DNA of 64,000 nt from Odontocerum albicorne. Lineage: Eukaryota > Arthropoda > Insecta > Trichoptera > Odontoceridae. Numbering within the stretch: the first letter of the stretch is position 1; every line of letters starts with the position of its first letter. Under the pieces are notes generated by a model. That model made no database searches and was not told the origin of the DNA. It worked only from the letters and a program-made list of their open reading frames with translations. The stretch spans positions 21,014,632 through 21,078,631 of the forward strand of contig OX463856.1 in the NCBI GenBank assembly GCA_949825065.1. The letters run 5' to 3'. A program made the translations under genes and the position numbers. This document shows, piece by piece, positions 4,861 through 49,155 of this stretch.

Positions 4861-4879
4861 AATGCTACTCGTAGGTATG

Positions 4880-5110
4880 TTATATATATTGTTGTATATA
4901 TTATTTCACTCTGTTCACGACAAATTGTCGCCTTACTTTCCAGTTTTCAAATTTTCAAAAGTAAAAATGTTTTTACGTAGAATTTCTGATATTTTTAATG
5001 TGCAGTTGTTTCTGCACGAAATACATGGAGGTTCCATCTTAACTGCTGGCTTCACAGTATTCTTCTGAGATCCATACTCCTTTCCAGCAGCTTTTACTTT
5101 GATGAAAATA
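4880..5110 (-). pseudogene. Possible transposon-encoded Cys-rich protein fragment
   Basis: One minus-strand frame reads VKAAGKEYGSQKN, then PPCISCRNNCTLKISEILR and KNIFTFENLKTGK before a stop. The C-x2-C-x3-C cluster followed by an 'I.E..R..IF' helix recalls a family of uncharacterised proteins that are repetitive in insect genomes and are probably transposon-derived. This is recall of a pattern only. No start codon or element ends are seen. Confidence 0.3.
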
Positions 5111-5755
5111 ACGTATCTGGGACTTCACATGTTTTTTTGCATTAACGTAAATTGGATTTCATATTTTTATTACACATGAAACATCATCTATTTAATAAAT
5201 GAATGACTTCGGTGCTTTATCCACTTATGGAACAGCTTATTACAATAATTTCTGAATTGTTAACTCAAAAACAGCAAAAAGTGGACTCCCATGGTTTATC
5301 CTCTAGGGTACAGATATGTTACTTTTAGATTGAGAAAAAAAACCATCCATGTATATTATACTACATTCACTCACACATCATTATTATTTGTACGAAACCA
5401 CTTAAAAATTGCACAACTGAAAGAATATGGAAGACATAAAAAAAATACTTGTATTGTTTGTTTTTTAAAAATATACACAAAATTAAAGTCAAACGTGTTT
5501 ATCCCCTTTAGTTGAGAGAATTTTTATCAAGCCAGAGTGATATTCAAACTTTCGACCGCTTTACTTACTGCGCGATAGCACGCCTCTTTTCAAGAAAGGC
5601 TCGCAAAATCCTTTACATTTGATAGCACAAAAGATAAATTGGTAGCTGTTTCCAATCTAAAAGTGCGAATTTCAACAGTAATTAATCTCTCCCTTCCAAC
5701 GCATCGGTCTGTTTTGGTTCTCGGCTTCTTAGAAACCATAATACTATCACTAGGG
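5111..5755. other. AT-rich stretch, nothing recognised
   Basis: No gene or repeat seen. Short frames here look random. Confidence 0.4.
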
Positions 5756-5960
5756 ATGTGGCCAAAATTGCTTTTTTTTTAAAAACAACCAATTGTTTAG
5801 AATATTCGGCATTTAGTTATTATTTATATTCAGCATTCGGTTATTTCGAATATTCAGCATTGAGTTATTTGAATATTTGATTATTCCGAATTGACGACAT
5901 GTAATTATTCTACCGAATATTTAGCATTTATTTATGATTTACTGAATATTTTACATTTTT
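5756..5960. repeat. Degenerate AT-rich repeat with ATTCRGCATT motifs
   Basis: Variants of GAATATTCAGCATT..GTTATT recur at irregular 22-30 bp spacing after the sequence CACTAGGGATGTGG. This looks like an old, simple, roughly palindromic repeat. No element ends are visible. Confidence 0.5.
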
Positions 5961-6433
5961 TTCTCCTGAATTCAATTTATCAGAAGATTTAGGTACATAA
6001 TTCATAATTCAATTTAAGATACATAATTCAATTTTAAATCAAATGATTTTTGAATAAATTGTAAAAAAAATCGATACAATTCAACTTTTTTGAAATGGGA
6101 ATACTGAAATAAAATGTGAGAGGATGATCTTCGACAGAATACTGAATTAGGGATTATTTGTGAAATATCATTTCAAACTGATCTGTTAAGAAGATGGAGG
6201 ACAAGTAAATGCATATGATTTAAGCTTGTAGTACGAATTCATTATTAACGCTTCCTTCCCTGTGATGTGTAACTAGTAGACATTGCTTCTAAAAACTTCA
6301 ATATCTTTATAAATATAATAAATACTGAGTTCAGATTTAAGGTATTCCTCCATAATACTCGTACATTTACGCATTGAATTATAAAATAATATAAATAATC
6401 ATTAGCACTTATCGGCCACATCAGAGATATTTT
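5961..6433. other. AT-rich stretch, nothing recognised
   Basis: No feature seen apart from one TACTCGTA octamer at 6356-6363. Confidence 0.4.
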
Positions 6434-6740
6434 GTGAAAATCGGGACTACATTCACCAATACAATCAAACGTGTGTCAGTGCGTGACGTAGGTATATTCA
6501 TTCTAAAATTCGCTATGGGTGAGGAAGCGACGTTATTCACGTCTTCCTCTACTTCGGTATATGGGAACGCAAGAAATAGATTCTCAGTTCGCAGTTGTTT
6601 CTTCCTTCCAGGTATAACATACACAGTGTTAGTGTTCCGAGTCCCGTCTCAGTAGCTCACGGGCATTCATACGATGTGGTCTTGGCGCCTGTTTTATGAA
6701 CGTCGGTTGATGTTTTTTCATGTTTTCAGCAATTAAATTT
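6434..6740. promoter_or_regulatory. CpG-enriched unique segment, candidate regulatory or 5' exon sequence
   Basis: About 17 CpGs in 300 bases stand out from the flanking sequence. There is a CRE-like TGACGTA near 6484 and arthropod initiator-like TCAGT words near 6478 and 6583. Both strands carry an open frame of about 70 codons, neither resembling a known protein, and a TTCCTTCCAGGTATAAC junction could act as a splice site. No similarity to the transposons of this window was seen. Function is unproven. Confidence 0.25.
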
Positions 6741-6999
6741 TAATTATTATCACTTTTGACTTCAAATTTAATTAATTTAAGTGATTGACTATGAATATTC
6801 CTATTTTTCCGATATTAAATCACTCATTTGTACATGTGTATTAATGAGCATTTCATACACAGGACCGGAATACGCGGTTTTTTTTAGCACAAGAAGGGAA
6901 AGGTTAACAAAATATTACCAGTGCAAAAAAAATTGTGTAATTGTAGTGAAGAGTCTAGAAAGATCAAGAAAATAAAATCTGAAAAGTTTATAGTATTTT
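6741..6999. other. AT-rich spacer
   Basis: Nothing recognised except the 12-bp left target duplication of the Penelope-like element at 6988-6999. Confidence 0.4.
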
Positions 7000-7153: not shown

Positions 7154-7361
7154 ACACTTCAAGTTCAAATGTTAAATTATTATCTTTCAAAGTCTTTTTG
7201 ATGTTCATAGCCGTGGCTAGTTCCTTCCGGGCGATGTTATATGAAATGAAATAACCAAAAATATTCCAAGTCACATAAAGCCAGCTTTTTACACTAACTT
7301 TAATCTCCGGAAACTCTTATTTAATGGGAAAGGCAAAAATGGAATACTTAGCAACAGCGGT

Positions 7362-7709
7362 GTGTATAAACTTTTATGTGCTGACTGTGATAATTTCTAT
7401 ATAGGAAAGACAGAAAGATCTTTTGAAAAGAGATTTCGTGAACACCAATCTGCCTTAACAAATCCTCTAATTTATTCTGAACTGGCTAATCATTGTCACC
7501 GTGAGAATCATACTTTTTCTATCGATGATGCCAAATTCTTACATATTAGCGGCAACGGAAATAAATTGGACAGATTAGAGGCCCTAGAAATTTCTAAGTC
7601 AGTATACCGATCGGAGCATCTGTTGAATAGTTATTTCCCCAAAATCTCCCCGCTCTTGGCCGAAATTATACCTAGCCTTCCCCTCACCCCTCCCGCCTCC
7701 AACCGTTGA
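7362..7709 (+). CDS. Penelope-type GIY-YIG endonuclease domain (transposon-encoded, RT missing)
   Basis: The GIY-YIG domain nicks target DNA during Penelope retrotransposition. The frame reads GVYKLLCADCDNFYIGKTE, giving the GIY-like GVY, a C-x2-C pair and the YIG motif, then KRFREH with the catalytic-type arginine, an NHCHRENH metal-site-like stretch, and a Pro-rich end before the stop at 7707-7709. The frame stays open upstream of the given GTG (GKGKNGILSNSG), so no true start is evident. In full elements this domain is fused behind a reverse transcriptase, absent here. It is uninterrupted, unlike the copies near 28.4 kb and 51.7 kb. It probably makes no functional product alone. Confidence 0.8.
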   Translation: MYKLLCADCDNFYIGKTERSFEKRFREHQSALTNPLIYSELANHCHRENHTFSIDDAKFLHISGNGNKLDRLEALEISKSVYRSEHLLNSYFPKISPLLAEIIPSLPLTPPASNR

Positions 7710-8395: not shown

Positions 8396-9560
8396 TAAGA
8401 TAGGAAGTGGGTGGCTGTAGCCATTACATTTGACACTATAAAAACATATTTGGTAAAAAAACGTACCAAGGGAAGTCAAACTACTTAAAAATATTTGAAG
8501 ATCTCCCTATATGTAATACGAGTATAAACACATTCTACTTAAGGTGTAGTGAAGTTTTTGTGTGTAATTTTCATATATTATCACAAATGTTGACAAGATC
8601 TCCCAGTAGGGGCTGTCTTCAAGTGCTTTCTAAAGCTGCACACGCAACCCTCACGAATATCTCCAATACTATGATTCAGTCCATTTCCACGCCACTCGTC
8701 CTGCAACATCATACTCATAGTAAGCCATAGGGTTTCCTGGTTTCACAATATTAATCTGTGTCTGGTGTATTTCTTAAATTGTATACTTGTTAAATTTATT
8801 AGTAGGAAAAATATTATTTGAAATGAGCATATCGACTCAGTGAAATTGTGAAATGAGCGCAACCCTAACTTTAGTGTATTTGCTACCGAGGCAAAAACAA
8901 AAGTGTGTAAGTAGTATGCTTTATCTATCGCCGACCGGATTAAGTCCATTAATTTGAAAGAAATCAAGAGTCCTAAGAAATTGAGAGCGAATTCAAAAAT
9001 AATGATTTGTTGGCCTGTGGTAGATAAGGGGTTAATCCAATCGTTTATTACGGCCTTCCTAAATTTATGGCCTCTGAATAAAATTAAAGCACTGCCTTTA
9101 ATTTTTATATATAATACAATATATATTTTTTTTAACGTTTTTTTTTTCTCTTCTTGGATAATTTAATTAATAAAATATGTGTCCCCTATCTCTCTCTTTT
9201 TCTTTTGTTTTCTGCTAGCGTTGTCTCTTTTCTGCCTATCCGGATAAAAAAATAGCGTGATTTACATATATAATTTAATTCATCTTTATTTTATCAGTAA
9301 TATTTTTATAAGTTTATTCATATCTTATCTGGTATTTTATTTGTAAAGTATGGATACAAACAAACCTTGGGAAAAAATTAAAGACTACATTCTCATTGGC
9401 CCCATCAACCAAGAATAAAGTCTTAGAAATTAATACAGCAGTAGTATTCTTAAGAAATAAATAAATTTTCATAATTTTGTCGTATTATTTTTTATACTTT
9501 TATTTAATACTAACGACCGTCGGACCTTTTATACAATTAAACAAATAAAAATAATTAAGT
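8396..9560. other. No recognised gene
   Basis: Mostly AT-rich. The stretch 8580-8720 is less AT-rich (minus frame IFVRVACAALEST) and may be a decayed transposon, but I cannot place it. One TACGAGTA octamer lies at 8517-8524. Confidence 0.4.
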
Positions 9561-9639: not shown

Positions 9640-11340
9640 TTCTAGTTGTTGTAGGTGATTATCACGTGACAGTTTACTAAACTTAGTGTATTTTTTTCAA
9701 TAATATTATATGGTAATTCTCGTTTAATAAAAATAAAGTCATAAAATAATGTTAAAACAACTTGACGAATATTTAATAATCCAACAAACTAGAGTATATT
9801 TATCGAAATATTACAATAAAAATATACTTTTTAAAGTTGATTTGTCTGGATACTAGAGGAGTTAAAATGATCTTTACAGTATTTTTATTGATTTCTCTAT
9901 CTGTGTTTCAAACGTTCAATAAGTTAACTACAATTGTGCTGTTAGCCTATGGGCACAAAGGAGTTTGTAAAGAAATTACGATATCCGTAGTCTAGTTGAC
10001 AATGTTTTACAAAACTGACAAGTGTGTATTTTGCTTCTACGTGAATTCTACAATTTAAAAAAATATCTTAAGTTTATATGTTAAACTATCATAAAGTATT
10101 TGTAGGTTATTATTAGTTGATTGAAAAAATCAATAAATTATCAAAGTTTTAAAATTGGACGCTGTGTAACTCCATATTATAATATGTATTAATAAATTAA
10201 ATTGTTAATTCACTGTTTCTACATGATAAGTCTTGAGATAGGAGGTAGATAAACATTAAGGAGAGTTTATGTAAAAAAATAAGATTGTAATTTATTTTTT
10301 AATATTACTTAAATATAAAATCTCATAACTTCGCAACCAAAAGACAAATTTGATATGCCCGCATATGTTGATATCTTCAACCGCCTCTGAATATCAGTAG
10401 TGGCGTTGGTAAATTTCCAATTTGGATTTCATATCTCGATACTTAATGGAATATATCAAAACGAGCTAATATTTATTTATATTGGAAAACCAATTCCAAT
10501 CAAATATTTGTCAGCTGTAGTGCCAAAGAGGCCAATCACAAGATCCTAAGAGATTAAATCGGTTGGCTTGTGTGTAAATTACAAGTCTTACATAGGGTTT
10601 CTAGTATCTGTATGATTCTGAGCATATTCAAAAAGACATCTAGCAATTAGTTACCAGATTTTGCGCTAGTTAATCTATTAAAATAATATTCACAGAACAA
10701 CATTTACAATTAATATAGTTTTGTTTATGAAAAAGCTATCTGAAGAGTACATAACAATGCGCACGCTCGCCATTTTGTGGATATAGAGAACTTTTTTAAT
10801 AGGCAATCCCTCAGGTGAAGTGATCTCATTTCTTTATCACAAATTTTACACGTTTGTCCTCAATACTAAAACACAAACACAAAATCTGCATTCACCTGCT
10901 TATACACACTTTACTCGTAATTCTTAGTTATCTATTTTACAACTCTTGTCCCATATTAATCTTAACACACCACATTGAAATCATGTTCAACAACTCTACG
11001 TCACTCACTTTTCAAGTACATATGTATGTGGGTACATTTAATAACTCCTGATTTATCTCTCTTTCATGTCAAATATATATTAAATTACCTACCCATTTTT
11101 TTGCATTTGAACATGCAACATTACAAACATTGCCACTTTTCCTCAGATATATGTTTTGTAAGTTCTTTGTGCAAGAAAATGCTCGTTTCTCCTCCCAAAT
11201 AATGTTTGAAAGCGTGACTACCGACCGATCTCTATTACCAAAATCATGGTTGTTGGCCCAGTAGTACTATAAATATTTATTTTATTAATTAATGGTCAAA
11301 TGTACCTTATAACATAAACATCGATAAAAAAAACTGTAGG
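9640..11340. other. AT-rich stretch, nothing recognised
   Basis: No gene, element end or tandem repeat seen. A TACTCGTA octamer is at 10912-10919. The frames near 10854-11202 look random. Confidence 0.4.
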
Positions 11341-11620
11341 GATAGCTTCATGTATTACAAACGACAGAAATTTCAAAAAAAAAACATTCCTATAACACTA
11401 GAATACGGGATCAACACAATTACGGAGCCAACACAATTAGTACGAGTACACACGTCACACTCTTACAACAATTCAACTCAACAACTAGCCAACACAATAC
11501 GAGGTCAGTACAATAAACACAATTTCACCAACACAATTCGGTACCGTCCAAAGGCGAACAGCCCGCATTTCACCAGCCAGGTGAACATTCTTGACATCAA
11601 TGTGAAAGCGGAATAATAGC
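11341..11620 (+). other. Unrecognised 88-codon frame with AACACAAT motif cluster
   Basis: The frame 11350-11616 is rich in Asn, Thr and Gln. AACACAAT occurs five times in 125 bases (11413, 11430, 11491, 11516, 11530). I recognise neither a domain nor a family. The composition suggests repeat-derived rather than true coding sequence. Confidence 0.25.
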
Positions 11621-12320: not shown

Positions 12321-13035
12321 TAATATGTTGCTCAATTCAGAAAACACAAATATTAAAATATTGTGTCAACAAAAGTAACTCCCAATTACGGTATTATCGT
12401 ATCAAATTTAGGCACATATTTTGCACACGCTGCTTAATAGAAAGCTTATGGTAAACAGCGAGAAGCTTCGAAGCTTTATTTACCTACCGAGAAAGTTTAC
12501 ACCCTTAATCCCTGCGAAAGGAAATAATCTCGATGAAGGATTATGATAATTACGCTTTAAGGCCTTCTTCCCAGGTATTGTTAAATATGTAAAGATTGTT
12601 TTTGATCTCTACCTGTTTTCATAGTTACAATCAAATTAATTATTGAAATTTTAAACCTGTGTTGAGAATAATATTCAATTATTTGTAATAGGATTTTAAT
12701 ATATTTTGAGTGTATATATTCTTATCATAAGAATGGTACGAGTATATCTTATATTTGTTAACAACAAAGTAGTTAAGCAATGATCTTTTTCTGATTTCAG
12801 ATTTTTTTAAATCAAGAAGTTTAATATCGTTTTTTTCATGTATTTTGGACGGCAATATTTTGTAGTTTGGGCCGGTATCATCATTTCATATTTTTTTTAT
12901 ATACTCGTACATGTTACGAGTATTTCTATTTCGCAGTTATTTTACTCATCTTTATTTGAGGTTTACTCAGCGCGACTGTTGAATATGTGAATCATTCTTA
13001 TGTACATTCGAGAGAAATTGAAAAAATATTTCATT
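12321..13035. other. AT-rich stretch, nothing recognised
   Basis: No gene seen. It holds TACGAGTA at 12737-12744 and the pair at 12902-12922. Confidence 0.4.
12902..12922. repeat. Pair of TACTCGTA octamers in opposite orientation
   Basis: TACTCGTA at 12902-12909 and TACGAGTA at 12915-12922 lie five bases apart. They belong to the enriched octamer described in the findings. Confidence 0.9.
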
Positions 13036-13810: not shown

Positions 13811-15710
13811 AAGTACCCATCCAGCGCGAGCTACCCTAGAAGATAAAAATATTCTTCATTTTTTGCAACTCCACGTAGTGACGAAGAAGAAATGGCCTAA
13901 AGAGACTCCTTCTTCAGTAGGGGCACACCTGAATGTGAAAAAATAGTAGTGACGACCGACTTAAGATCCAATATCACGGGAGAATTTTTTTTCTCTTCAA
14001 AAATGGCTTAAGGACTGGAGTTCAAACAGCCTAATAAGTACTTTCATCAATTTTGTACAAAGAAATAATGATTTTGACCATGTAAATTCTTATATTTAAA
14101 TATGTATAGTTGGTCGTTAAAGATTGCCACCTAGAAATATTTCCACCAAATTGTTAAGCAATGAAGTTCTACATAAATAAATCATAATCACCCTCCCCCT
14201 TCCTATTATTCAACTTTGTAAAACAATTGGCTTACAATTTACAATGTGGTAATAAACACGCCATATTGTACAAGAAAGATTATTTAATAAGACAAACCCG
14301 AAAACTTCTAGCAAAAAAGTGATTAAACCACATCACCATAAAAATTAATTTAAATATTTTTGAAAAAAAAAACATGATAAGCTGGAAATATTCATCAAGA
14401 CTGGAAATGTCAGACGACAAAAAGAAAGAAAAATAGTTTGAATTTTAATAGGCTTTTAGTTTAGATAAATCATACACCTGGAATCACTTTGGTCACTCAA
14501 AGGTGATTAAAAACTCGTTTTAATTGAAGAATTCCACACATACATGTATGTGTATATTGTATAAAAGTAACAATAAAGAAATATTTACATATTTTTACTT
14601 AAAATTTTAAATGATTTTTTCAAACCCATAAATTTTCCGAACATTGCGTTCATAAAAAAAAAGAAAACGTAACGAATAAGCCAGTTTGCAAATTAAAAAC
14701 AATTTCAAGCATTTAATGAAGCATGAATTTTTCCATCTACCGAGGGAAGAATTTCGGAGTTAATCTCTTCAAGTTGCTAACAATATCATTAAAATATACA
14801 ACTTCGAAGGTATTTTCTAACGAAGTAAGCTTTTTACCCTACTGAAATTTGAGTATATACTCTAGTACCCGTACATTCGCGGAGTGTCGCAAAATTTCAG
14901 AATCAAGGGGAAGAAATTCCCAAAATATAAGTCTCACCTTTGCCAATCTAGAAAACAAGTGAAAATTTCAACGTTTCTTATTTATTTAAATTTCATAAAA
15001 AATACTTGTAATAGGTGTCCCTCGCTGAGTGTGAGTATTTGGTGTTACGGAATATCGCGTAGCTAGAAAAACGCGTAGAGTTAAATTATTTAAATCTGGA
15101 TGAGATATTGATGGGTTCGAAACGAAAAAAAATAATCTGAAAAATGATAAAAAAAACATCTCTTGTCGTAACACTGTTTAACCACGCGCTTTATTCTTAC
15201 AGTCCTCGACTGTTTATGAGCGAGATTGATATTGTACTATAAATGTTCTCCTAGTCTATCCTTGTGGCCTTTTTCTATTCTATTTTAATCTCGAAGATAA
15301 TTTTGATGATCATTCCTTAAAGAGCTAGGAAAAAGTGTGTATTATTTGTCATCATTGGATGTTAATAATATGATATTGTTTTATTACACATTTTAAGATT
15401 AATATAGAGGTTTTGATCTTTAAAATTGATATACTCGTACATGCAAACAATAAACTGTGACACTTAAAGAAAGTTTAAACATACTTTGAAAAATCTAATA
15501 GACACAAAAAATGTATAAAAATAATAAAATTTGAACTTAAAGTTAATGAGATACTCGTAATAGAAAAATAGGGTTTAAAAATAAGAAGAAATAAATGAAA
15601 GTCACTACGCACTAACGTCCAGCTGGAGGAGTTAGGAGAATTTACCATTTTTCAGTCACCCTCGGTACATAGTGAAAGAAAGCAGTCCGGTCACCTCGTT
15701 TAAGACGTGT
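13811..15710. other. No gene recognised
   Basis: Mostly AT-rich. 14110-14155 resembles the SINE tail (AAAGATTGCCACCTAGAAAT). 13860-14030 is less AT-rich but matches nothing I know. TACTCGTA octamers lie at 15432 and 15552. Confidence 0.4.
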
Positions 15711-15713
15711 GCT

Positions 15714-19193: not shown

Positions 19194-19741
19194 GGCATCA
19201 ACGAGTTTGCATTAAATATTGCGTGAAAAACGGATTTAACGGTCCGCAGACCTTGGAAATGTTGGAGAAGTGTTTTTCGGTGGCACGAACGCTTCAGAAG
19301 TGGTCGTGAGTCGGTCGAGGATGACGAACGCAGTGGCAGTCGAAAACCGATGAAAACATCGATAAAATCAAAGAAACGTTGGCCGAAAACCGTAAATTGA
19401 CCATCAGAGAGCTGGCAGAGGACTTAAACATCGCTCATGGATCAGCTTACGACATTTTGGTTAATGATTTGGGTCTCAGACGTGTCGCTGCAAAACTGGT
19501 GCCGAAAGACCTCAATTTCATGCAAAAAAAGGACCGCGGTGAAATCGCAAAAGACATAATTTCCATGAGTTTTGGACCAAAAATAACACGACTACTATCC
19601 GGCAGTCTTTGAATTCACCTGATCTGGCTCCCTGCGACTTTTTCCTGTTCAACCGACTTAAAAAACCGCTTCACGGAACGCGTTACAGCACCCGAGAGAA
19701 TGTCATGAAAAAATCGAAGAATGATCTGATGGACATGGTGT
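19194..19741 (+). pseudogene. mariner transposase, 5' part with frameshifts and internal deletion
   Basis: A diverged N-terminus starts near ATG 19194 (MASTSLH then stop). The best block is TLAENRKLTIRELAEDLNIA through LGLRRVAAKLVPKDLNF (about 19376-19530), the second DNA-binding helix-turn-helix of a mariner transposase. A few codons later the frame jumps to NSPDLAPCDFFLFNRLKKPL, which carries the third catalytic aspartate, so the segment with the first two aspartates is deleted. Translation then runs into the inserted element at 19743. The C-terminus continues beyond it at 21361. No active enzyme can be made. Confidence 0.85.
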
Positions 19742-20104
19742 TAGGACTATATTTGTTAAATTGCATACTTCACGTCCTCGAAATTGTTAATTCGCGACAT
19801 ATCATAATTTATGAAACTTGTGGTGTCGAGACCATGTGCTTGCCTTGAAAACAGGAAGATTAAAATATTATGAAATACTTGAATATTTTAAAATACTAAA
19901 GACAATAAAGTAAGGGTAGCTACCCTTGCAGTCAGGTACATTTTTATTCAATGACAACATTGTCACGTACGATTTTGGTCGAGGTTGGCACCACTGTTTT
20001 TCGTATTTCCTTGCCAAGGGGAAGCAGGCGCTCGCAGGCTCCTCCTATTCCGTTCGGAACGTGGTGAGGTTTGGACGTAGGTCCGACGCTGCTCTTCCTC
20101 ATAT

Positions 20105-20304
20105 ATCACAGAAGTCCAGGACGCCATCTTAATTACGGGTGAATATTATTCCTTCTATTTTAATGTGGATTTCGTCGCCACGCTAAAAACCCACCGAGTA
20201 AAGTAATTTCAAATTGTTATTGAAATCTCCCTTGCTAAATACAACACATTCTTTCTTGCCAATTTTAACTTTTTTTCTTGACCTTCGTCAAGTTTTTTTT
20301 TATA

Positions 20305-20384
<80 letters not shown>

Positions 20385-20624
20385 GAATGAAACAGTTTAT
20401 TATATTAAAAAAAAAGAAAAAAATAATATATAAAAAAAACTTGAATGTCAAGAAAAAATTTAAAATTGGCAAGAAAGAATGTGTTGTATTTAGCAAGGGA
20501 GATTTCAATAACAATTTGAAATTACTTTACTCGGTGGGTTTTTAGCGTGGCGACGAATATCCACATTAAAATAGGAGGAATAATATTCACCCGTAATTAA
20601 GATGGCGTCCTGGACTTCTGTGAT
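20105..20624. repeat. ~200-bp inverted repeat around a 77-T tract
   Basis: The left arm (from ATCACAGAAGTCCAGGACGC at 20105) and the right arm (ending in its reverse complement at 20624) match almost base for base. Between them T runs without a break from 20307 to 20383. The arms would form a long hairpin. Such a tract between perfect arms is hard to assemble, so its length may be unreliable. Confidence 0.88.
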
Positions 20625-21148
20625 ACACGAAGAAAACTAGTCTGGCTGTCCTCGGTACAAACACTATTCCTGGACAGACGTGCTAACCGTGTCGTATCTG
20701 AGGGCAGAAGGGAGCTCCTCGTGGAAGTTCGGGCCTTTTATAGCCACTTGCGAGAAAGAGATGCTACATGACTTCCTTCTCACTTAAAAAATACTATAGC
20801 CGCCTGTTAGACCCGAGATTATAAGGAAGGACAATTGACTTCGGCATTTCTATACAATTCAGCAAAGCAAAAGAAAAAAGGGTCCATGTCTAGACTCTAC
20901 TTTATCTTTTTAAAAGACAATTGAGATCGGTGTCTCTTAGAATTACTCAAAAGGGTATATCGTCTAGACAGAATTTATTGCTTCCTTGAACAATGGATTT
21001 TTTATGACCCTGCTTTTGTTTTCTCAGTCGTTTACCGATGGCCTTACAATTTCCATCTTTTCAAAACAAAATTACATTTATTATAGGCCCCTTTTCTTAA
21101 ACAAACAATAACCATGGGATTCCTTACAATCCAGGATATAATCCTATA

Positions 21149-21724: not shown

Positions 21725-22065
21725 GTTTCTATGTTAGGGTAGGCAGAGACACAGTACTTTCTTTTTTTTTACTTCTTACATTTCGTTCTTTAAAAATATT
21801 TCCTTGATCTAACAATAACTTCTTTGGTCTACCTCTACCACGTCTTACACTCACAATTTGCACTGCATATTTGTTTATTTCTTCATTCATTCTCAAAGTA
21901 CTATTTTTCATCTTATTCAACACATCACCCTTAAGTTCACATTTATCAGTTATACTTCATTCTGTATTCTGTCATACATTGTCGCTCCATGTATTTTTTC
22001 AGGCACGCATTTCTACAGCATTTATTCGGCTCTTTTCAATATTTTTTTCCGCGTTCAAGTTTGTG
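21725..22065 (-). pseudogene. RTE-like LINE reverse transcriptase C-terminal relic
   Basis: The minus frame begins with degenerate RINAVEMRA and, after stops, gives a 64-codon run VLNKMKNSTLRMNEEINKY, then VSVRRGRGRPKKLLLDQ. This matches the 'RVEKG.LRWFGHVERM...GRGRPRK..ID' tail of RTE-like LINEs, with the GHVERM box deleted. The next element begins at 22066, directly at its edge. Confidence 0.65.
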
Positions 22066-23020: not shown

Positions 23021-23937
23021 TAATTAAACCATTTATATTATAATAAACTTCTTTGTTTCTAAACTTATATCTCTTTTTAATTGCCCCCCTTGTCCTGGTA
23101 AAAGATTTGAGAGAGAGTTACTCAGAATTTAAGGAATCCAACGAACCCTGAGATCAAAGAGGACTTGTTCCTTTTTCGACCGCTGAGCCGAGCAGGCGTC
23201 ACACATGGTAAGATTGGAATTTGGTAAAATTGATTTACGTAATTAAATGTGTAAATTAAATTATTCTAAAAAATAGGAAAAGGTGTGACAAGTTTTACTC
23301 TCATACATCAAATTTAGTACGTCAATACTCTTGTGAACCTTCATCTAAAGAAGTTTTAATGCTGTCAGGTTCGATAATAAGTTTTAGAGCCCAATTACCT
23401 TTGTTTTCTATTGCTACCCGCCTTTCGAAATGACTCGTAATTCTTCTATCATTTGATAGAATATAATTCTATCTACGAGTAGATAGCAAAAATATTCTTA
23501 AGCAATTTTTCATTACTCCCCTTTAAACATCGGAGAAAGCAAATATGTACGAGTACATAATAAACTTATTAATTTATAGTTAAGAACAAATATTACACCT
23601 TAAATTGATTGCACTGGAAGGTGATTAAGTATTTAATGTTTTATCCCTGCGGTTATCTCTTTTTGATCTTTAACAAATTACACATTAAATTCAAGGGACT
23701 AGATTTTCAATTCTATTTTGTACCAAAAAAGTGTAAATTTATAAAATATTAGAGTTCAATTATTTTTATTGATTCAAAAGACCTTCGTTCTTGATTTGCC
23801 CTTGGCATACCTGGAGAAAACCTAGGCTAGGTCTACAATGAAACATAATGATAGAGTTGATGCAGTACTGAGCCAGATAGCTGAGCCTTGTTTTGTATTG
23901 TATTACAAAATCATAATACATCATCATCAAACCAGTA
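23021..23937. other. No gene recognised
   Basis: AT-rich, with TACGAGTA octamers at 23474 and 23548. Confidence 0.4.
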
Positions 23938-26200: not shown

Positions 26201-26886
26201 TTCGTTGTTATTTTTTCTAATTGCACTACTCGTTTTATTTGACTTAATTGGATAAAACTTGTATCGAATACAGAAAGAAAAAAATATAAGATATCTGAAA
26301 TTCGATTTGAAATCAAAAATCTACTCTTGTAGTATATTTAAATATAAAAAATACGGAAAGACAAATGCCATTTAAATTTCATGACCACATCAAACGCGAT
26401 ATACTCGTAAGCCCAATTATATCTACAGATGATATTTTGAATCGAATGGCTAACATGACTAAAGCGAAAAAAAATTCAGATGAAATTCGTGAAATCAAAT
26501 TTATCTTATTATTTTCAATCTTCCTATAGTGAGCGATCATGTAAAAAAGAGTTATAGGCAGAGGTCAACGCACCCTTGTCTAGTTTTATGCCTCCTTTGT
26601 TTTTAAACTGATTTTTTTTCTCTGAAATCACGCATAAAATGGTGTGTTTGAACTCTGAATTCGAATAAAGCGTAATAAAACCATTCAAGATATCACGGAA
26701 ATTTAAAGAGAATTGTGACAATATCCCATAAATAGTTAATGTTCGTCCCATACTATCCTGGCAACAGTTCAACTTGTAATAGAAAAAAAAAACTATCACT
26801 GAATAAGAAACGAGAGAAAAAAACCTTCATATAACATAAAAAAGAATGTTTCAGCTTTAAAATTGTAAAACTCTATGTGACAATAA
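26201..26886. other. No gene recognised
   Basis: AT-rich; TACTCGTA at 26402-26409. The minus frame at 26524-26799 lacks recognisable motifs. Confidence 0.4.
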
Positions 26887-27220: not shown

Positions 27221-27224
27221 TTTT

Positions 27225-27510
27225 TATGCCTACTCCAACAAGAAATGGTTTAATACTATGTATGTCTACTTCAACAAGGAAATGGTTTGATGGTATGTAC
27301 TCGTATGTCAACCTCAACCAGGAAACGGTTTGATAGTATGTATGTTTATCCCAACAAGGGAACGATTTGATAGTATGTATGTTTACCCCAAAAAGGGAAT
27401 GGTTTGATAGTATGTATGTCTATCCCAACAAGGGAACGGTTTGATAGTATGTTATGTATGTCTACCCTAACAAGGAAACGGTTTGGTGAATGGTATGTAG
27501 GTATATGGCA
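27225..27510. repeat. 37-bp tandem array grown from a LINE 3' end, 7 copies
   Basis: GGTTTGATAGTATGTATGT occurs at 27247, 27284, 27327, 27364, 27401, 27439 and 27480. Spacings are 37, 43, 37, 37, 38 and 41. The 43-bp unit is longer by exactly the 6 bp that create TACTCGTA at 27298-27305. The unit matches the LINE 3' terminus 'ctaccccaac..ggtatgtatg'. Confidence 0.92.
27298..27305 (+). repeat. TACTCGTA insertion in one array unit
   Basis: GTATGTA-CTCGTA-TGTCAACC here versus GTATGTATGTCTACC in sister units: a clean 6-bp insertion equal to CTCG plus one TA. Confidence 0.9.
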
Positions 27511-27823
27511 ATTCAAAATTAAATATTGAATAATCATGTTATTAAACAATTACACTTAATATACTCGTATATACCGTCTCTTTAACTTTTTATTGAATTG
27601 AACCAATTAATGTGATTTACATATTTATTTTAAGACTTTTGTCTACAAAATGCAATGTAAAAGGCACCCAGACCATAAAACCACCAACCATACAATAAAA
27701 ATCCTTTTGGTACGTTTGCCAATTAAATAAGTTACTCTTTTTTTCAAAGAACCATAAATAGCAGAACATTGAAGTATAGAGAAAAATGTGTTATTTCATA
27801 CAATGAAGGTCCTTTTTTCATGG
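27511..27823. other. No gene recognised
   Basis: AT-rich; TACTCGTA at 27562-27569. Confidence 0.4.
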
Positions 27824-28400: not shown

Positions 28401-28429
28401 CTTGTTCATTTCTACACTGTTCATTTCAC

Positions 28430-32189: not shown

Positions 32190-32770
32190 ATAAGATATTA
32201 AAGCAGGAAAGAGAAATTGAAAAAGGATTTTCAACAGCTTGTTGCAATTGAAAACAAAGTCAACGGGGCACTAAAATGCATATACTCAAACCAAAAAATA
32301 TCAATATCAAACAAAATGATGGTACAAAATAGAGAATCACTACAAATATTGATGTGGCAAATCGTGGATGTGGAAAATAAATTAAATGAGCCGTTTAAAA
32401 TAGTTAAAAATGTTATTATTAATGATAAATTTAAGCCAAAACTTATGTGTTACGCACTAGTAAAGTTGAAAAGAGACGCTAAGAAAATTTAAATGTTTTT
32501 GTTGAACGATTGGGTGACGAAAGACGTAAAACAAATGTACATTTCAAGCATGACTAAGAGTCGAGATAGAGGAAGACAGAGAAAAGTATAGTTCAACCAA
32601 AATAATTCAATTTCGGAAGGTAAGAAGTAAGAGAAACAAAAGGAAATAAATGAGGAGATGTATAAATGTGGAGGAGGTGAAGAAGTGTGTTGGTATTGAC
32701 AAAGTTTGACACTATTTTCTCTCTACATAACTCAACATGAAAAGTGTGTGATGGCATATACTCGTATGTA
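32190..32770 (+). pseudogene. RTE-like LINE reverse transcriptase relic
   Basis: The 91-codon frame contains NKVNGALKCIYSNQKISIS and NKMMVQNRESLQILMW, fitting 'INRVNGAL...(S)R..K..I..GVL.PTLMYGSE' after the catalytic core; the YGSE box is lost. Degenerate continuations include RDRGRQRKV, and the LINE 3' end reaches GTGTGATGGCATATACTCGT near 32750. An octamer lies at 32759-32766. Confidence 0.6.
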
Positions 32771-32924
32771 TGTTAAACTATTATATATCAACGCCATAAA
32801 GCCATAAGCAAAAAAAAAAACATTTATAAATAACCAAAGAAAAAATTAATTACCCTATATTATTTTTTCCATTAAGTCAATGTATCACATACTTATGATG
32901 AAACATGACTTTAATGCGACCAAA

Positions 32925-33105: not shown

Positions 33106-33984
33106 TGTTTACGTATACTCCAATAAAATTTTTTAAATCATTCGTTGTAGCAAAGAACTAGCAATTAGCTTCAGACAATATTCATCTTGCCACATTAGTA
33201 GATTAGTAAATCTGAATCATTAAATATCTCTCCGAGGACCTCAGCCAGTACTCCCGACTCGAATTGTGTTAAATATAAATCATTTATTATTGAATCTCGA
33301 CATATAAAAAGAAAAATATAATTTATTAATATAGGACATAAACAGCGAATTGGATACAATTTTTTTTGTACAATAAATGAAAGAAAAAAATATCAAACAG
33401 GGATACCCACAATATTTTTTAATTTACCCTAGCTTGGAGTTCCAAAGGGTGAGTGTCCCTTTGTGACGTTGGATATTGTTAGTTTTTGCAACGAACGGAA
33501 GGTAAAACAAATGTTAAATGATACTTAAAATTTGTTTTATTTGTTTTGTTAGAATCATACATTGTGGTAATTTATATACTCTGGAATAAACATTTAAACA
33601 TATTATCATAATAAGTACGAGTATAACATAAGCCTAACAACATGGAACCAAGATATGAATCAACTGTGTTTTTCCTAACTTAGAAACATTGGAATTGATC
33701 AAAAACACACGAAATCGAACATGTTTTCTAATGATTATAAGAATCATAGATTTTATTTTTAGTTATTCATAAGCTAATATTTGTTCCATATATACACAAT
33801 GCTGTACATATATACATACATGCATAGGTCTTAAAACACAACAAGTACAAAAACAAAACGTGTAAGTGCTTTATATGTTTTTTTTGTACTTGTTATGTTT
33901 ATTAGCTTTTGTACGATTTAGGGAAACTTATGTGCAAGGGACCTAAAAAATAAATTATTAAATGGAGTTTAAATGCATGCATCA
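33106..33984. other. AT-rich stretch, nothing recognised
   Basis: TACGAGTA at 33616-33623. No other feature seen. Confidence 0.4.
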
Positions 33985-36195: not shown

Positions 36196-36339
36196 ATCTA
36201 TTCACTAGAATTCTATTCTAGTGTACTTCTCACTAAGACGATGTAAATGTGTGGCAATAAAAAAGACTTTTAGTACATACGAGTACTTATTTTTTTCAAA
36301 AATTGCTATCTTCTCCGATTCGCTAAATGATCTTCGTTC

Positions 36340-37739: not shown

Positions 37740-37930
37740 AAATGAAGAAAAACTGCCAACACAATTATATAGTACAAATGTGCGTGGAAGAAGAAGATCA
37801 AGGATAGTATGATTGGATCAAGTAAATTATTCCTGATGTGTGCCTAGAGAGGATAATATGGCGCTCTGCATCTTTGCCTACCCCAACCGTAAGATGTCGT
37901 GATGGTATGTATGTACTATATGTGTAAACC
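37740..37930 (+). pseudogene. RTE-like LINE 3' end
   Basis: 'gtacaaatgtgcgtggaagaagaagatcaagg' keeps the codons of the GRGRPR block; TTGGATCAAGTAAATTATTC and GCCTACCCCAACCGTAAGAT, then GTCGTGATGGTATGTATGTA form the standard 3' end of this LINE. Confidence 0.6.
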
Positions 37931-38414
37931 TGCGGTTAACACAATACTGATACCTTTTTATACCAATTTTTTTCGGGGAAATGCGGGGAAGAAACTAGTT
38001 TAATGGCCGCAACCAATACCTATCTGTATTTCTTCTTTTTTTAAGTATATTATAACATACTTAAACATAAGTGTATATGAAATGCTTGGTCAGGCATATG
38101 AACGAGATTAGCTGGAAGACAACATTTTCTTCCTACCCAGTAATCGAGCTTTTGAGCTTTAAACCACTTTAGAAGGCACAGAACTCGCATTTCGTCAGTG
38201 CATCTAATAGCAATGATAATACGTATGAAGAGGTAACAACACTCACACATATACCCGACGCGCTCGAATACTGTTACCAAACAAGCTTTTTCATCGAACT
38301 GCGACCATTTTTTCGTTCAATTGGTAATTGAACCCGAACCCCCAAATAGAAGTCAACGCATTCAAAAAATTCTCTCTTAATACCGCTGTATAAATTTTAT
38401 TTCTTTATTACTAT
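37931..38414. other. Unrecognised stretch with a 76-codon minus frame
   Basis: The minus frame 38050-38280 contains several Cys and hydrophobic residues but no motif I can name. Probably not a gene. Confidence 0.3.
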
Positions 38415-41300: not shown

Positions 41301-42300
41301 TTATGTTTAGTATAAAAACGTAATATCTAATTGTTTAATTTCATGAAATTTATTGGATATTATGAACTTTTCGTGTACGTTTGTGTATTGGCTACAATGA
41401 AGCAGCTTCAATTGTCTTAAAATTACAACCTTCTATTTGTATTCTAGGTCTTTTCAATCTCTCTTGAATGAGTTTCGTTCATCTATTTCTTTTCAAGCTG
41501 GATTTACCTATTTAAAAATATAAATGATACTTTCAAAACCTCATGGATATATTACAAGCTTGAATGCATGCGGGGCAAATGTATTACCCATAAGATATGA
41601 AAAAACATAACAACGATGAGCTTAGAAACACTAAATGGATAAGAAACGATAATAAGACATTTATTGTCATAATCGTTAGCCGTACAATTCAGGATGAGTC
41701 TAGACTGCCTGCAGGATTCTCTTCCACTTAGCTCTCACAGCAACACTCTTTGTCCAATTGGATATACCGAATATGCGACAGCCACACTATTCATACATCT
41801 AAGATTCAGTTATAATAAAAAATGTGTACATAAATAAATAAACATGACTCAATAAAATAATGAAAGAATTGTTAATATGATTGTTGTAATTGTATACGAA
41901 GCACAATGTTGGGTATCTTTTGAAAAAAATTCTATAGATTAAAAATATAATTATTAAAATTCAATATATTTATATGTTGTTATTAAAAACTGCAAAACTG
42001 GAGAATAAAGACTAAATTTGTCTAGAATAAGTGATCTGCAAATGTTTAAATCTAACTTTAAAAGTCTATTTACTTAGTTGCAAAGCTTTCAAAATTAAAA
42101 AAAAGAGGAAAATTTCAATTATTCTTCCAAATAAAATATTTTTTTTAAATACTGGTAAACTTTAGTTACTCTGAAACTTTGTCGTTTTTATTGTAAAAAT
42201 GTCAATTTGGTAGACGTGTGAATGGTATACGAGTATAATAATTGTTAAAAAAAAATTAAATACACAAATTTATGACGCTTTATGACGCTTGCACTTATTT
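41301..42300. other. AT-rich stretch, nothing recognised
   Basis: TACGAGTA at 42228-42235. No other feature seen. Confidence 0.4.
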
Positions 42301-42392: not shown

Positions 42393-43544
42393 AAGGTTCA
42401 AAATTAAAAAATACATTTTGTCAGGTATGCTACACAAGTTTAAAGATAAAGGGTACGAGTCTCAAACTACATTTTCTTTATAATCCCCTGGACCATCAAT
42501 TATTAAAGAAACGAGGGAATAAAATATTAAAGAAATTGAACATCGGTATCAAGGGTGAGTTTTTAATATCATAGGAGACTAATGTTGGTTGTTAAAAAGA
42601 GACAATTCTTCAATCCACCAAAAAAATCTTGCATTTGTTCCCAATTAGAGTATGTTGTATGCACTTTTATTTGTTTTGTGTTTTTTTAGGAAAATAAATA
42701 ATTTTATAAGAAAGTTGTACGTATTTAGTAACAATTTAGTTATCCATAAAATATTTTTGTTTTTGTAAGGAAATATTTATTTATAAGTGTACTTTACAAA
42801 GACCGCCCTTCCAAAAAATGAAAAATCTTAATGTTACATATTTTTTTAATTAAGTATTAATAAAAATGAATTTTTTTGTGCATTTAAATCAAAAGCGAGG
42901 ATTTTTCGCAGCCTTATTTTATTTCTCGGTGAATAACGAAAATACCAAATTTTAACTCTGACTTGTATTTTTTTTACATTTATGATGTGGCTGGTTACAA
43001 AAACGTGAAATTTATAAGGTATGTTGAAATAAAATAATGTTTACTATTTGAAATTTTAATATTCAATTTTTTAATAATTAATCTCTGCAAATTATTTGAA
43101 GTATAAGAAAACGTGAATAATTTCAAAACACTGATCGTTTAGACTGCATAGAAAGACTCCTGAACTGAAACTGAATATAGCGCATTTATCCAAAGCAATA
43201 AATATCAATTATAATTTTATTAAATGAACATAAAAAGATAATACTTATTCATTTTCTTTCTTTTTTGCCGCCATTCTTAAATATAAACACCTATGCAATT
43301 CAAGAAACCCCTAATTTCTTAATATACTCGTACCGTACATAACTGATAAAAACTGTAACAAAAACATTATTTTTAATTTTCAAGATAAATGTCAATTATA
43401 ACTCGGTCACCTCCAAAAGGATTGTAATATTAAATATGTCAAATAATGATTTATTTTTCCTATATATTCAAATCGTAATATATTTTTTTAATTTTAATTC
43501 CTAAGCTTCGCTTTATCAGTACGAACGTACTACAATTCCAGGCT
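42393..43544. other. AT-rich stretch, nothing recognised
   Basis: TACTCGTA at 43325-43332. No gene seen. Confidence 0.4.
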
Positions 43545-44045: not shown

Positions 44046-45131
44046 TTTATATGAGAGTGTATGGACCGATACCACACCGGTCATATACATTGCATGGTCA
44101 GGCAATTTTACAGTTCAAATTTAATACCTCGACCATTAATAGTATGTCAACTAGAGCCGATATAAGACGCGTTGTTTCGTTATATTCCTAAATTTTAAAA
44201 ACACGATTTCACACTGTTATCAAAATTTATTAAAAAGGGAAGGCTGTTTACAGAGAAAATTTTCAGAAAAGATTCAAGAACGTCTATTCCAATTGCTCTA
44301 GGTGACATACTGCTGAAGGTAGAAGTATTTTAAAGTTACCTGATTGTCCGTTGACGTGGCTGGTGTGGTATCTATCCATAGAATATCTTACTTGTTCAGA
44401 CAGACCGGAAACTTTTGGACTTTAAGTGATATTAATTATATAATTAGTTATTAAATTCTGTCTTAAACAACTGATCAACAAAAAACAGTATTTATTAAAT
44501 ATTTTAATTATTTCAGAACGGTTCAAATATATACTGGATTATTGTTGCATTTATACATCCAAATAAACTAACTTAATTTGCATAATCGTTTTGAAAAATA
44601 AGAGAAAAGATTGAACAGCAGTGTTTTAATTTCGCGTGAATAATATTACTCTTCCGACGTTTACAATACGCACCTTAATTATCTGCCAGCCATTGAACGA
44701 ATATCATATGGTTACTACAGTTATATCATTTCTACTTCTAAGCCTCATATTATTATATATTTATCTTCTGGTAATAAAGCGAGAATTCTAGTCTCTTATT
44801 CCGATATCATATTCATATTAAATTTATAAACCCGACTAAAAAATATACGAGTATATACGAGTATATTTCTGGTAAAGAGTTTTTCAGATGAACTCTTACT
44901 TAAAATGAATCATAAACGTAATAAGATAACGCCACTCAAATAAAACTTAAATAATACATCAACTTAAGAGCATAGCTATTTAACTTTTTTTTTATCTCAA
45001 GTTCCATTTATTTAATGGTTAAAGTATTAAAAAAAAGTCATTGCGGTATTCAAGAAAGGATTTTTAAGATTTTACAACTGTTATGTATTTAAAACTATTT
45101 GCAAGTGGGCTGCAAATCCCCTATCCATTGC
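44046..45131. other. No gene recognised
   Basis: AT-rich. It holds the paired octamers at 44846-44863 (TACGAGTATATACGAGTA). Confidence 0.4.
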
Positions 45132-45279: not shown

Positions 45280-45720
45280 TGACAAAAATGTATGATAGAG
45301 TACGGAATGAAGTGATTATGGATGAATGTATAAGTATTACTGATGTGTTGAGTAAAGCATTAAATGTGTTTTGATATGATTTGGGAGTGTAAAACAAATG
45401 AACAAAGAAAGTGACAAGAACAATGAAGTGAAGAGAGCGATCCGAAATGGTTTAGTCATTAAGAAAGAATGAATGAATGAAGAAAGACTAACAGAACAAA
45501 TATATACGAGTATGGTGCAAATGTGGGTAGAAATAATAAAGAAAGACCAAGGAAAGTATGGTTGGATCAGTTAATTATATTTTGAAGAAAGTAAATATAG
45601 AAAGTCAAGAAATCTTAGATATGTAGGAGGGGATGGATGTGTGTTAGGATAGATAAGTCTGGCGCTCTATCCTCTCTGCCGTCTCCGACAGTGAAATAGC
45701 GTTAAAGTATATATGTGTAA
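45280..45720 (+). pseudogene. RTE-like LINE C-terminal relic and 3' end
   Basis: Fragments in order: YDRVRNEVIMDECISITDVL, 'aatgaatgaagaaagactaacagaacaaatata' (MNE.RLTEQIY), AGACCAAGGAAAGTATGG (RPRKVW), TTGGATCAGTTAATTATATT and the 3' end GATAAGTCTGGCGCTCTATC, CTCTCTGCCGTCTCCGACAG. Frames are broken throughout. A TACGAGTA octamer at 45505-45512 sits inside the 'acaaatata|..gtgcaaatgtg' junction that is uninterrupted in other copies. Confidence 0.65.
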
Positions 45721-47116
45721 TACGAATAAATAATAAAATGTGCCCCAATTTTATTAAATTGTTCGTCTGGTAAAAATACTCAAGTACGCCAGACTATTGT
45801 GTGTCGTGTTTTTATATGCAGTATGGGTATTGCCAACACGTGCAATGACAAACTAAGAGATCCATGCTTTCTCCAGTGCTCCTAAAGCTTAAAGGCTTGA
45901 TTGAAGAGGCCAATAAAATATATTGACATGCTTTTAAATATTCTCAACGCCAATTAGACAATTTTGAGTGACATTGAACGATTGAATCAAATTGAAAAAT
46001 ATTAATTGCAAATGTATTGATAGCTTTATAGTATTCAAATATATGTCTTGTAATAACACATATGAGATATTGTTGTTGGAAAGCCTGAAGCGGCTTTAAA
46101 ATGTGTTTGTTCGGTATATTTTTTTTCTAAAAAAATATGATCATATATCCAAATATTGTACCAGTCTACAATGGCTAAAAATATAACAGTGAATATATCT
46201 CCACTTTCTGTCAATTGTCTTCGGAGTATTGAATAATCCAAGATGTCTTCAGTTTTTGCGACGAAGAAAACATTTTTTTTTTAAAGCATGGACTGTGTCT
46301 CCGATTTAATGACAGCAGACTCATGTGTATACCAACGCATTAAACATCATCACTTGTGGTTCACTTAGTTAAATTTGGAACGATATTCCTGACTCGATCT
46401 GATATGTTACATCCTTATAGATGTTTAAGAATTAACTTAGAAGTATTATTTATCTCAAAATATTCTTCTTTCCTAACTCCCATACAATTCCCATGCTTAT
46501 TTCAATTTTAATTTTGTCATGGATACCAATAATAATTATGAAATAAATACTGATTGATCGGAAGAAACAGCTTTAAAAAAATAATCCATGTGTATTTGCA
46601 TAAAAGTGTTAAATAAATATGTATTAAGGCAATGGAAAAAAATATATCTGAGAGAATAAAAAAATCTGCAACCATCTCATAACTTCTTCACAATTTAGAT
46701 ATACCCCCACCAATAGGAGGACGACAGTCTACATTTCAAACAATTAAAAAATTGAAATTGCTCAACTGCACTGGCTCCGACATTTATATCGCGTGCAGAA
46801 ATGTCTATTGAGTGATTTGATTCTACTTGATCTACTACAACTACTTGATCTATTGAGTGATTAGCAGGAGAGAAGCGAGACTAAATCTAAGAAAGTAGGA
46901 TGCTGTGACAGAACTGTCTGAGTGTAATCAAGTAGAGGAGGGGTGCTACTGACAGATACAAGCGTCAGATTATCATGTTGGTAACCAAGACCCATTCTGA
47001 AATGTAGTGCTGATGATAACAATAACGTCATTTACACGTGTGTATAAAATTTCAATAAAAAATCACACTTTTGCTCATCAGTTATATATCATAATAGGCC
47101 GTCGGTAAACGTAAAC
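45721..47116. other. No gene recognised
   Basis: Contains a 14-bp direct repeat TCTATTGAGTGATT near 46803 and 46850. Otherwise unremarkable. Confidence 0.4.
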
Positions 47117-47407
47117 CTAAATATCGGTAAACCGAAAATGGAACAAAACACAATGTGACAAATTAAACAAAACATACAGTGGAATAACGGCGAGCCCTCG
47201 GCAAAAAACTACGTCTCCACGACAATATCCAAAATCCTTTGTCCGATGCACCAGATAACTTATTCCTGCTGAAACAATAACAACATGCAGTGAGGAAGTA
47301 TAGACAGTGTCTCTATAGAAACAAAAGTCAACAACCCAACACGAAAAAGAGTTCTTCAAAGATTCAACAAAAATTTCATCCTGTCCTACCGATAGGCATC
47401 GCACCAC
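47117..47407 (-). other. Unrecognised 96-codon minus frame
   Basis: Starts MVRCLSVGQDEIFVESLKNS and includes FGYCRGDVVFCRGLAVIPLY. Base composition is less AT-rich than its flanks. I know no family with this pattern. A GTTTCAGCAGG near 47270 could be a splice acceptor on the dpr strand, but frame and homology give no support. Treat as an open frame only. Confidence 0.25.
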
Positions 47408-47610
47408 TCAAGTTTAATAAAAGGCATGGGTGAATTGTCTATTAAAAAAAACTATATGCTACTTCGTCAAAAGTTTGAATGAAATCTGATTCTGGGTCCA
47501 TTAGCAATAAAATTGATGCTGGGGGCAATCAAGTAAAATTACTGGAAAAATCAGATTTGTTTTTTCAACAAAAAGTGTTTTTTTTACGGAAAATTTTCCA
47601 CATTTAAATA

Positions 47611-47795
47611 TTTATACTCCAGATTGTTACCTATATAAGTATAACAATTAATTCGTATTTAGTTACTATTTATACACCAGATTATTACCTATGTATAAAA
47701 GTATTATAATTAATACGCATTAAGTAACTATTTATACTCCAGATTGTTACTTATATACTCGTAAGTATAACAATTAATACGTATTCGTTATACTT
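47611..47795. repeat. 58-62 bp tandem repeat, 3 copies
   Basis: Units begin TTTATACTCCAGATTGTTAC at 47611, 47669 and 47731. The third unit differs from the first by a clean insertion of CTCGTA at 47758-47763. Confidence 0.9.
47756..47763 (+). repeat. TACTCGTA insertion in one tandem unit
   Basis: TATATA-CTCGTA-AGTATAAC here versus TATATAAGTATAAC in the first unit: a 6-bp gain equal to CTCG plus TA. Confidence 0.9.
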
Positions 47796-48319
47796 TCAGT
47801 TAGTATTTCAAACAATTCCAAAACAAATAATTGATTCATTTTTTATTAAAAATTGGGTTAAAAAACTGTCATTTGTATATTTTTATTTATTCTTTTCAAT
47901 GTGCAATAACTTTATTTTATTTTCGTGATTGGTTGCAGCGCGTGATCTGCATGCGTGGCAAATTTAAATTGGTCAGCCAATACACGTTTAATTTAAACTG
48001 TAATCGAATTCGTAGTAACTACGTAAAGCAAACAATTTTAATGAAACATCAGTAAATATATGTAAGCTCTTTTTTCGACTGTCAAGTTGTATTTTTAACA
48101 ATAGACAAGTTAATTTAACTGAGTATCGGGTAATTAAATTTATTTAACTATTGCCAACATTCCAGACCATTACCAAGTTTACTGTTGAATAAGTATTTAT
48201 ACAAAGAGCAATATTTTAAACGAAAGATCCGTATTTGATTAAAATTAATCAAATTGAAGGATTAAATCAACAATTCGGATTAATTAAAAGCCGATTCGCC
48301 CGTAATATGCTTTTTTTAA
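47796..48319. other. No gene recognised
   Basis: AT-rich. No feature seen. Confidence 0.4.
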
Positions 48320-49155
48320 ATGGCCTTAATTCTCGAGATTTTGATTGACCTTTAATACTCGTACTTGTTCAAAGGGAGACAAAAACAATTTAAACAAAAA
48401 ATATTAAGCAATATATCAAACTTCAACATTTCAATACAGAAAAATAGAAACTAAATATATTATTCTCCAATATATACTTGTGAAAAAAAAAAATTATTGG
48501 AATGTGACGAATAATAGCACAGAAATGTAATTAATAATAGCGCCAAAATGTTAACCATTAAAACACTGAAAATGATTATTATTGGAACTGAAATATAATC
48601 AATAAAATACTGAAATATAATCAATAATAGCACTAAAATATTATCAATCATACCACCGAAATATGATCAATAATAACCCTAAAATGTGATTCAAATAGTA
48701 CTCGAATATGTTCAATGTGAGCCCTAAAATGTGATAAAAGTTGACTCCTTAATGTGACAAACAATAGCACGTACATACGTGTGATAAATAATAGCTATTA
48801 AATGCGATCAATTATAACGCTAAAATGTGAGAATAATAGCATTCATTCATTTCAATATCCGAACCCTCTATTATACCACGTGTTTTCAGTAGAAGGAAAC
48901 AGAGATCACCATATCATTCGCAACAATTAGGATGAAAGAGCATGTAGTCCGGACAAACTAGCATGTGCTGTGTATACCATGCTAGTTTGTCCGGACTACA
49001 ATCAGATTAAAAGCTTCTTTTGTTCAATAAACCACATCTTTACATGTTCACCTTGCACCTGTAAGCCCCTACTCGGAGTCTTTTAAACATCAATTATAGT
49101 GTTGAAACGTATTTAACCATAGCTCTGAAATGTGATCAATAATATCCCTAAAATG
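48320..49155. repeat. Dispersed element carrying an ATGTGATCAATAATA minisatellite
   Basis: Begins with CGAGATTTTGATTGACCT, then about 15 diverged units of 'aaaatgtgatcaataatagcac' (48500-48850), a perfect hairpin (48943-49000) and two more units at 49110-49155. A shorter relative with the same leader (TGAGATTTTGATTGACCT) and minisatellite is at 55655-56150. Confidence 0.7.
48943..49000. repeat. Perfect 23-bp hairpin, 12-nt loop
   Basis: The left arm TGTAGTCCGGACAAACTAGC continues to 48965; its exact reverse complement lies at 48978-49000. GC content is higher than the flanks. The size would suit a small-RNA precursor, but perfect pairing also suits a palindromic transposon remnant. Confidence 0.92.

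Follow-up and report, generated by a model that had tools for sequence, protein, structure and literature searches.

The window analysed here is a 64,000-nucleotide stretch of the trichopteran Odontocerum albicorne (positions 21,014,632 to 21,078,631 of contig OX463856.1), and it contains 25 exact copies of an octamer that reads TACTCGTA on one strand and TACGAGTA on the other. Most of these copies are probably footprints left on excision by a Tc1/mariner-superfamily transposon of the cut-and-paste kind with CGAG ends, most likely of the Minos type. The octamer is enriched as a single exact word, it is gained at TA at three sites, and its targets are palindromic. The mechanism behind such scars is already known; it is their density and uniformity that are unusual.

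Enrichment of the octamer and its gain at TA

An exact search returned all 25 starts listed in the initial annotation of this DNA, 13 of them as TACTCGTA and 12 as TACGAGTA (Table 1). Dinucleotide shuffles (n = 100) gave a mean of 1.44 octamers and a maximum of 5. Markov models of orders 1-3 predicted 1.26-1.67 copies when the octamers were left unmasked, and 1.21, 1.43 and 1.19 copies for orders 1, 2 and 3, respectively, when they were masked. The unmasked orders 4, 5 and 6 yield higher values (2.7, 9.6 and 18.3) because these models are trained on the octamer copies themselves. The tenfold excess given earlier, with 2-3 copies by chance, reflected a real enrichment, but its figures are replaced by about 15- to 20-fold and 1.2-1.7 expected copies. 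By chance, one or two of the 25 octamers are expected, and these are indistinguishable from the rest.

By p-value under the order-3 model, the octamer is the most enriched non-homopolymer 8-mer of the window. The initial annotation had proposed a count of the TA-NNNN-TA words against a Markov model; run within the 64-kb window, this count makes the octamer stand out, as among the top 20 words it alone is in large excess and the next ratio is about 2. A scan from TA-N1-TA to TA-N8-TA, covering words with at least three copies and the five best per length, revealed no TA-bounded word of comparable excess at any other footprint length. The other words that pass correction in it include extensions of the octamer, low-complexity words, words of a 17-bp array at 1780 and a few words with 3-6 copies, while TAAATA and TACATA are mildly over-represented (about 1.3-1.4 fold). 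Of 515 papers that contain one of the two octamer strings, the 40 listed gave no lead by title and abstract beginning.

Each of the 25 sites was compared with the rest of the window, once unchanged and once after deletion of six bases. Control scores came from up to 40 random positions, some of them evidently within repeats, and a paralogue was accepted at a collapsed score of at least 44, the 90% point of these controls. Three sites exceed this cut-off (27298, 45505 and 47756), and at all three the removal of CTCG plus TA improves the fit, by 17, 17 and 21 points, respectively. At 27298, which lies in an array of 37-bp units, four other units (27247, 27327, 27363 and 27401) read TATGTATGT against TATGTACTCGTATGT; they are exactly the 6 bp shorter and carry a plain TA in place of TACTCGTA. 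The fifth unit (27438) has a separate 5-base gain, TTATG. At 47756, unit 47622 of the array 47605-47785 is again exactly 6 bp shorter, and unit 47680 shows its own local change and aligns with a 2-base gap. At 45505, three paralogues (49526-49353, 37830-37738 and 21764-21892) are each 8 bp shorter, the difference being the six bases and one extra TA of a TA run. At 27298 and 47756 the gain is one of 6 bp, from TA to TACTCGTA, with TA on both sides of the insertion.

The filled and empty pairs reported earlier for the two tandem arrays are borne out by the four shorter units at 27298 and the one at 47756, and the paralogue alignment suggested there, when carried out within the window, adds 45505 as a third such site. 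The stated gain of CTCG plus one TA is exact at the two arrays, but at 45505 it amounts to 8 bp. The claim that the scars postdate the LINEs and arrays is supported at these three sites only. A longer shared repeat as the carrier of most copies would have spoken against insertion, and a comparison of flanks rejects it for the collection overall: with 14 bases taken from either side and no gaps allowed, no two sites agree at more than 17 of 28 positions (median 9). The likely exception is the pair formed by 32759 and 27298.

Several related LINE-like 3' ends with TATG-rich tails are present at 27000-27485, 32540-32830, 37760-37960, 45440-45730 and 49340-49640. The label LINE was given to them by eye, and the pieces tested had no Pfam match. 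The 37-bp array at 27225 may have been built from such a tail.

The target was studied by joining both flanks of a site around one TA; 23 of the 25 sites were used, one of each overlapping pair being dropped. On both sides, reading toward the TA, the collapsed targets favour A at -3, T at -2 and a purine at -1, which gives ATR-TA-YAT. The composition of the flanks departs from that of other TA sites with a summed chi-square of 45.8 over five positions, a value reached by none of 4000 random-TA samples (maximum 44.1) and by none of 4000 samples of other TA-N4-TA words (maximum 44.0). Against random TA, the signal lies at -3, -2 and -1 (p = 0.00075, 0.025 and 0.0025), with none at -4 and -5. ATR half-sites make up 18 of 46 (background 6.6%), and ATR occurs in both halves of 5 of the 23 targets (background 0.3%). 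The consensus was derived from the same data, and its own p-value is optimistic; the overall flank test is independent of this choice. Symmetry of the flanks across all 25 sites has p = 0.0095. Such a palindromic preference is as expected of Tc1/mariner integration, and a preference for palindromic AT-rich or AT-repeat targets is stated for Sleeping Beauty and ZB in the parts of the sources consulted (PMC3016246, PMC7913693).

Match to Minos and rival explanations

Minos of Drosophila hydei, a Tc1-like element of the Tc1/mariner superfamily, is the most likely named match for the source of the scars. Its end, TA-CGAG, is printed as a methods primer (TACGAGCCCC..., TACGAGCCCCAACC...) in PMC3680223, and its footprint is given as 6 bp in the introduction of PMC10992017. 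The scar word is accordingly TA, the four end bases CGAG of Minos, and TA, with TACTCGTA as its other strand; the TA target is likewise shared. Minos differs from the present case in that the window holds neither a Minos end nor a Minos element. Footprints of 2-4 bp are cited for Tc1/mariner elements in a passage of PMC7913693. Sleeping Beauty and Frog Prince, for which PMC3878927 tabulates the footprint C(A/T)GTA, follow the same logic of TA, element-end bases and TA, although their core has three bases instead of four, and other letters.

The proposed sequence of events would be as follows. The element would insert at TA, preferably within ATRTAYAT, and duplicate the TA. On excision, a cut four bases inside on one strand would leave each flank with a 4-base 3' tail, CGAG. 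Two such tails could pair only at the outer C and G, and repair of the joined heteroduplex in favour of one or the other strand would yield TA-CGAG-TA or TA-CTCG-TA. Minos cuts with a four-base stagger and its break is repaired via a heteroduplex; for the present scars the overhang and the heteroduplex step are also suggested by analogy with Sleeping Beauty. The nearly equal counts of TACGAGTA and TACTCGTA fit heteroduplex repair, which is weak evidence by itself, as random orientation of insertion gives the same result. The initial annotation had read the octamers as scars left by a Tc1/mariner-type element that targets TA and whose ends are CGAG...CTCG, and this agrees with the filled and empty pairs, the palindromic target and the printed ends and footprint length of Minos; the name Minos itself is an addition of the present analysis. 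Its alternative, an undescribed insertion process of 4-6 bp, is not needed, though it keeps a small probability because the window yielded no source element.

The search for that element covered all 67 pairs of the form TACGAG...CTCGTA or TACTCG...CGAGTA within 6 kb of each other, and none had matching inner repeats. No element with Minos-type inverted repeats starting CGAGCCCCAACC was found in the 64-kb window. A complete source element is, therefore, rejected among pairs within 6 kb, none being recognised, and the source presumably lies elsewhere in the genome or has been lost. When the D. hydei Minos transposase was used as a query, a single match in the window went beyond chance (3530-3739, 31% over 71 amino acids, E 9e-5). 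The matched stretch is what is left of some Tc1/mariner-type transposase and is too divergent for the label Minos. The stretches 3494-3772 and 19325-19845 carry motifs that we take to be those of mariner-type transposase remnants; neither has a Pfam match. The first contains the match to the Minos transposase just described, and 19325-19845 lacks one. Relatives of the D. hydei Minos protein are present in public data and are not tied to the present genome. A search for their DNA confirmed nothing in genome_contigs or viral_contigs; plasmids gave three distant matches (22-30% identity), one of them annotated as IS630 family.

An inverted-repeat unit of about 540 bp was also observed at 20095-20634, in which two arms of 95-99% complementarity flank a long T run. 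Its boundaries carry neither TACGAG nor TACTCG; the latter is present within the arms (20195 and 20528).

Several observations weigh against an origin by excision of a Minos-type element. There are 25 scars and no recognised element in the window. Nothing there matches the initial 16 bases of the Minos end with up to three mismatches allowed, and the best pair of candidate ends shares 12 of 20 inner bases, a value reached by 10% of random-TA controls. No informative paralogue is available for 22 of the 25 sites. The cut-off used is no higher than the 90% control point, and the score of 45505 (66) lies barely above the 95% point (64). Furthermore, one unit in each of the two arrays deviates from the simple 6-bp difference. 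Site 32759 scores 41 filled against 29 collapsed because it matches the filled copy at 27298, to which it is identical at 31 of 38 positions spanning the octamer; the two may represent a single event copied with the repeat or two hits in a like target. The uniformity of the word is a further difficulty. In the part of the rice survey that was consulted, 86 of 94 natural DNA-transposon excisions had deletions, filler or both, and 8 of 94 left nothing but the target duplication (PMC4423477). That survey deals with natural excision sites at genome scale; most of its excisions are irregular, and a 4-base remnant would be classed as filler there. Here a single uniform scar dominates, although counting words would miss any irregular ones. 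Finally, Minos is favoured over other lineages sharing these end bases by an agreement with the literature in letters and length only.

An unlikely alternative is that the scars are footprints of another Tc1/mariner lineage, unrelated to Minos, whose inverted repeats happen to open with CGAG or CTCG and which also leaves four bases behind. The scar displays just the four terminal bases, and the window offers no element by which lineages could be separated. Among the few elements compared by their printed ends and footprints, however, Minos alone fits, and Sleeping Beauty and Frog Prince do not. It is far less probable that the octamer is a regulatory or architectural protein-binding site, kept or spread by selection. 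The word is highly uniform, its flanks are symmetric and AT-rich, and the scarcity of one-mismatch variants described below would also suit purifying selection. Against this, wherever a clear paralogue exists, at three sites, it reveals a gain at TA, and these sites sit in LINE-like and tandem repeats; moreover, the core is asymmetric, whereas the flanks mirror each other about one TA.

Direct writing of CTCG at TA by an enzyme, with no longer element ever present, appears just as improbable. It would account for 25 scars with zero source elements in the window and for a large excess confined to one word and one length. To our knowledge, no enzyme is known to do so, which was counted against it, and the word is identical to the scar expected of Minos from its printed end and footprint length. 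Excision of a Minos-type transposon remains the favoured explanation.

Density, age and positions of the probable scars

After subtraction of the chance expectation, the scars have a density of about 0.37 per kb, or one per 2.7 kb, and occupy 0.38% of the 6151 TA dinucleotides in the window. Such a density in an undisturbed genome is not described in the consulted passages of the literature on Minos and footprints, and among the papers listed on natural footprints (20 of 129 in one search, 15 in another), titles and abstract beginnings named nothing comparable.

One-mismatch variants of the octamer number 41 against 36-39 expected, with 22 of the transition type against 13.5-15.4. As a point estimate, this excess corresponds to no more than about one change in five scars; a count of 53, the upper 95% limit, would allow about 0.7 change per scar, or about 9% per base. 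As these variants are barely in excess, the scars look young, and a divergence of the order of a few percent is suggested by these counts. Old, decayed scars are rejected on the same slight excess.

The largest gap is the last 15.6 kb (48364-64000), which has the same TA density and not a single octamer (p = 0.023). Mild clustering was also seen, with 5 gaps of less than 200 bp against 1.96 expected (p = 0.037). Either may be due to chance. The neighbouring copies at 44846 and 44856 could be either a second hit in one TA run or a 10-bp duplication.

Table 1. Candidate TACTCGTA footprints in the window
Feature	Position	Strand	Basis
Candidate footprint	4866..4873	+	exact search
Candidate footprint	6356..6363	+	exact search
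Candidate footprint	8517..8524	-	exact search
Candidate footprint	10912..10919	+	exact search
Candidate footprint	11441..11448	-	exact search
Candidate footprint	12737..12744	-	exact search
Candidate footprint, inverted neighbour of 12915	12902..12909	+	exact search
Candidate footprint	12915..12922	-	exact search
Candidate footprint	15432..15439	+	exact search
Candidate footprint	15552..15559	+	exact search
Candidate footprint; collapsed target CTATC-TA-GATAG, 12-bp palindrome	23474..23481	-	exact search, flank analysis
Candidate footprint; collapsed target TATG-TA-CATA, 10-bp palindrome	23548..23555	-	exact search, flank analysis
Candidate footprint	26402..26409	+	exact search
Candidate footprint inside 37-bp array 27225-27485	27298..27305	+	paralogue alignment
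Candidate footprint	27562..27569	+	exact search
Candidate footprint near LINE-like 3' tail; perhaps not independent of 27298	32759..32766	+	alignment
Candidate footprint	33616..33623	-	exact search
Candidate footprint	36278..36285	-	exact search
Candidate footprint	42228..42235	-	exact search
Candidate footprint	43325..43332	+	exact search
Candidate footprint, 10 bp from 44856	44846..44853	-	exact search
Candidate footprint	44856..44863	-	exact search
Candidate footprint within LINE-like repeat	45505..45512	-	paralogue alignment
Candidate footprint in tandem array 47605-47785	47756..47763	+	paralogue alignment
Candidate footprint	48356..48363	+	exact search

Each move of a cut-and-paste element leaves a single scar, and scars may, therefore, far outnumber the copies of the element. 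If the density seen here holds genome-wide, the scars, and not element copies, would be the main trace of a DNA transposon in this genome, with hundreds of 6-bp insertions per megabase. In that case, earlier transposition events could be tallied in raw sequence by means of one exact word, even where no element survives. Every scar would then serve as a presence/absence marker, and together they would form a natural sample of host repair at very many identical breaks. A wider outcome, rather improbable at present, is that 4-base scars occupy about 0.4% of TAs throughout the genome with few or no resident copies, which would imply either a long-active Minos-type element with near-uniform repair or a dedicated CTCG-writing activity.

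Other features of the window

The scan for RNA families (at the gathering threshold) and for tRNA genes gave none in the window. An open reading frame (ORF) at 61683-62429 on the minus strand matches PF05970 (PIF1-like helicase) and is probably derived from a Helitron; a 477-bp tandem repeat (62427-63823) adjoins it. Among the 120 of 2267 matches listed for this ORF, the best named one is from Nylanderia fulva (86%), several are from Trichonephila clavipes, nematode names also occur, and there is no exact match; taken together, the listed matches point to arthropods. A comparison of the ORF with viral_contigs gave no match. Another ORF, at 7245-7706, has a GIY-YIG match, appears Penelope-like by eye and gave a single match. 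Fragments similar to it by eye are located in the ORF 28424-28738 (minus strand) and at the end of the ORF 51523-51861.

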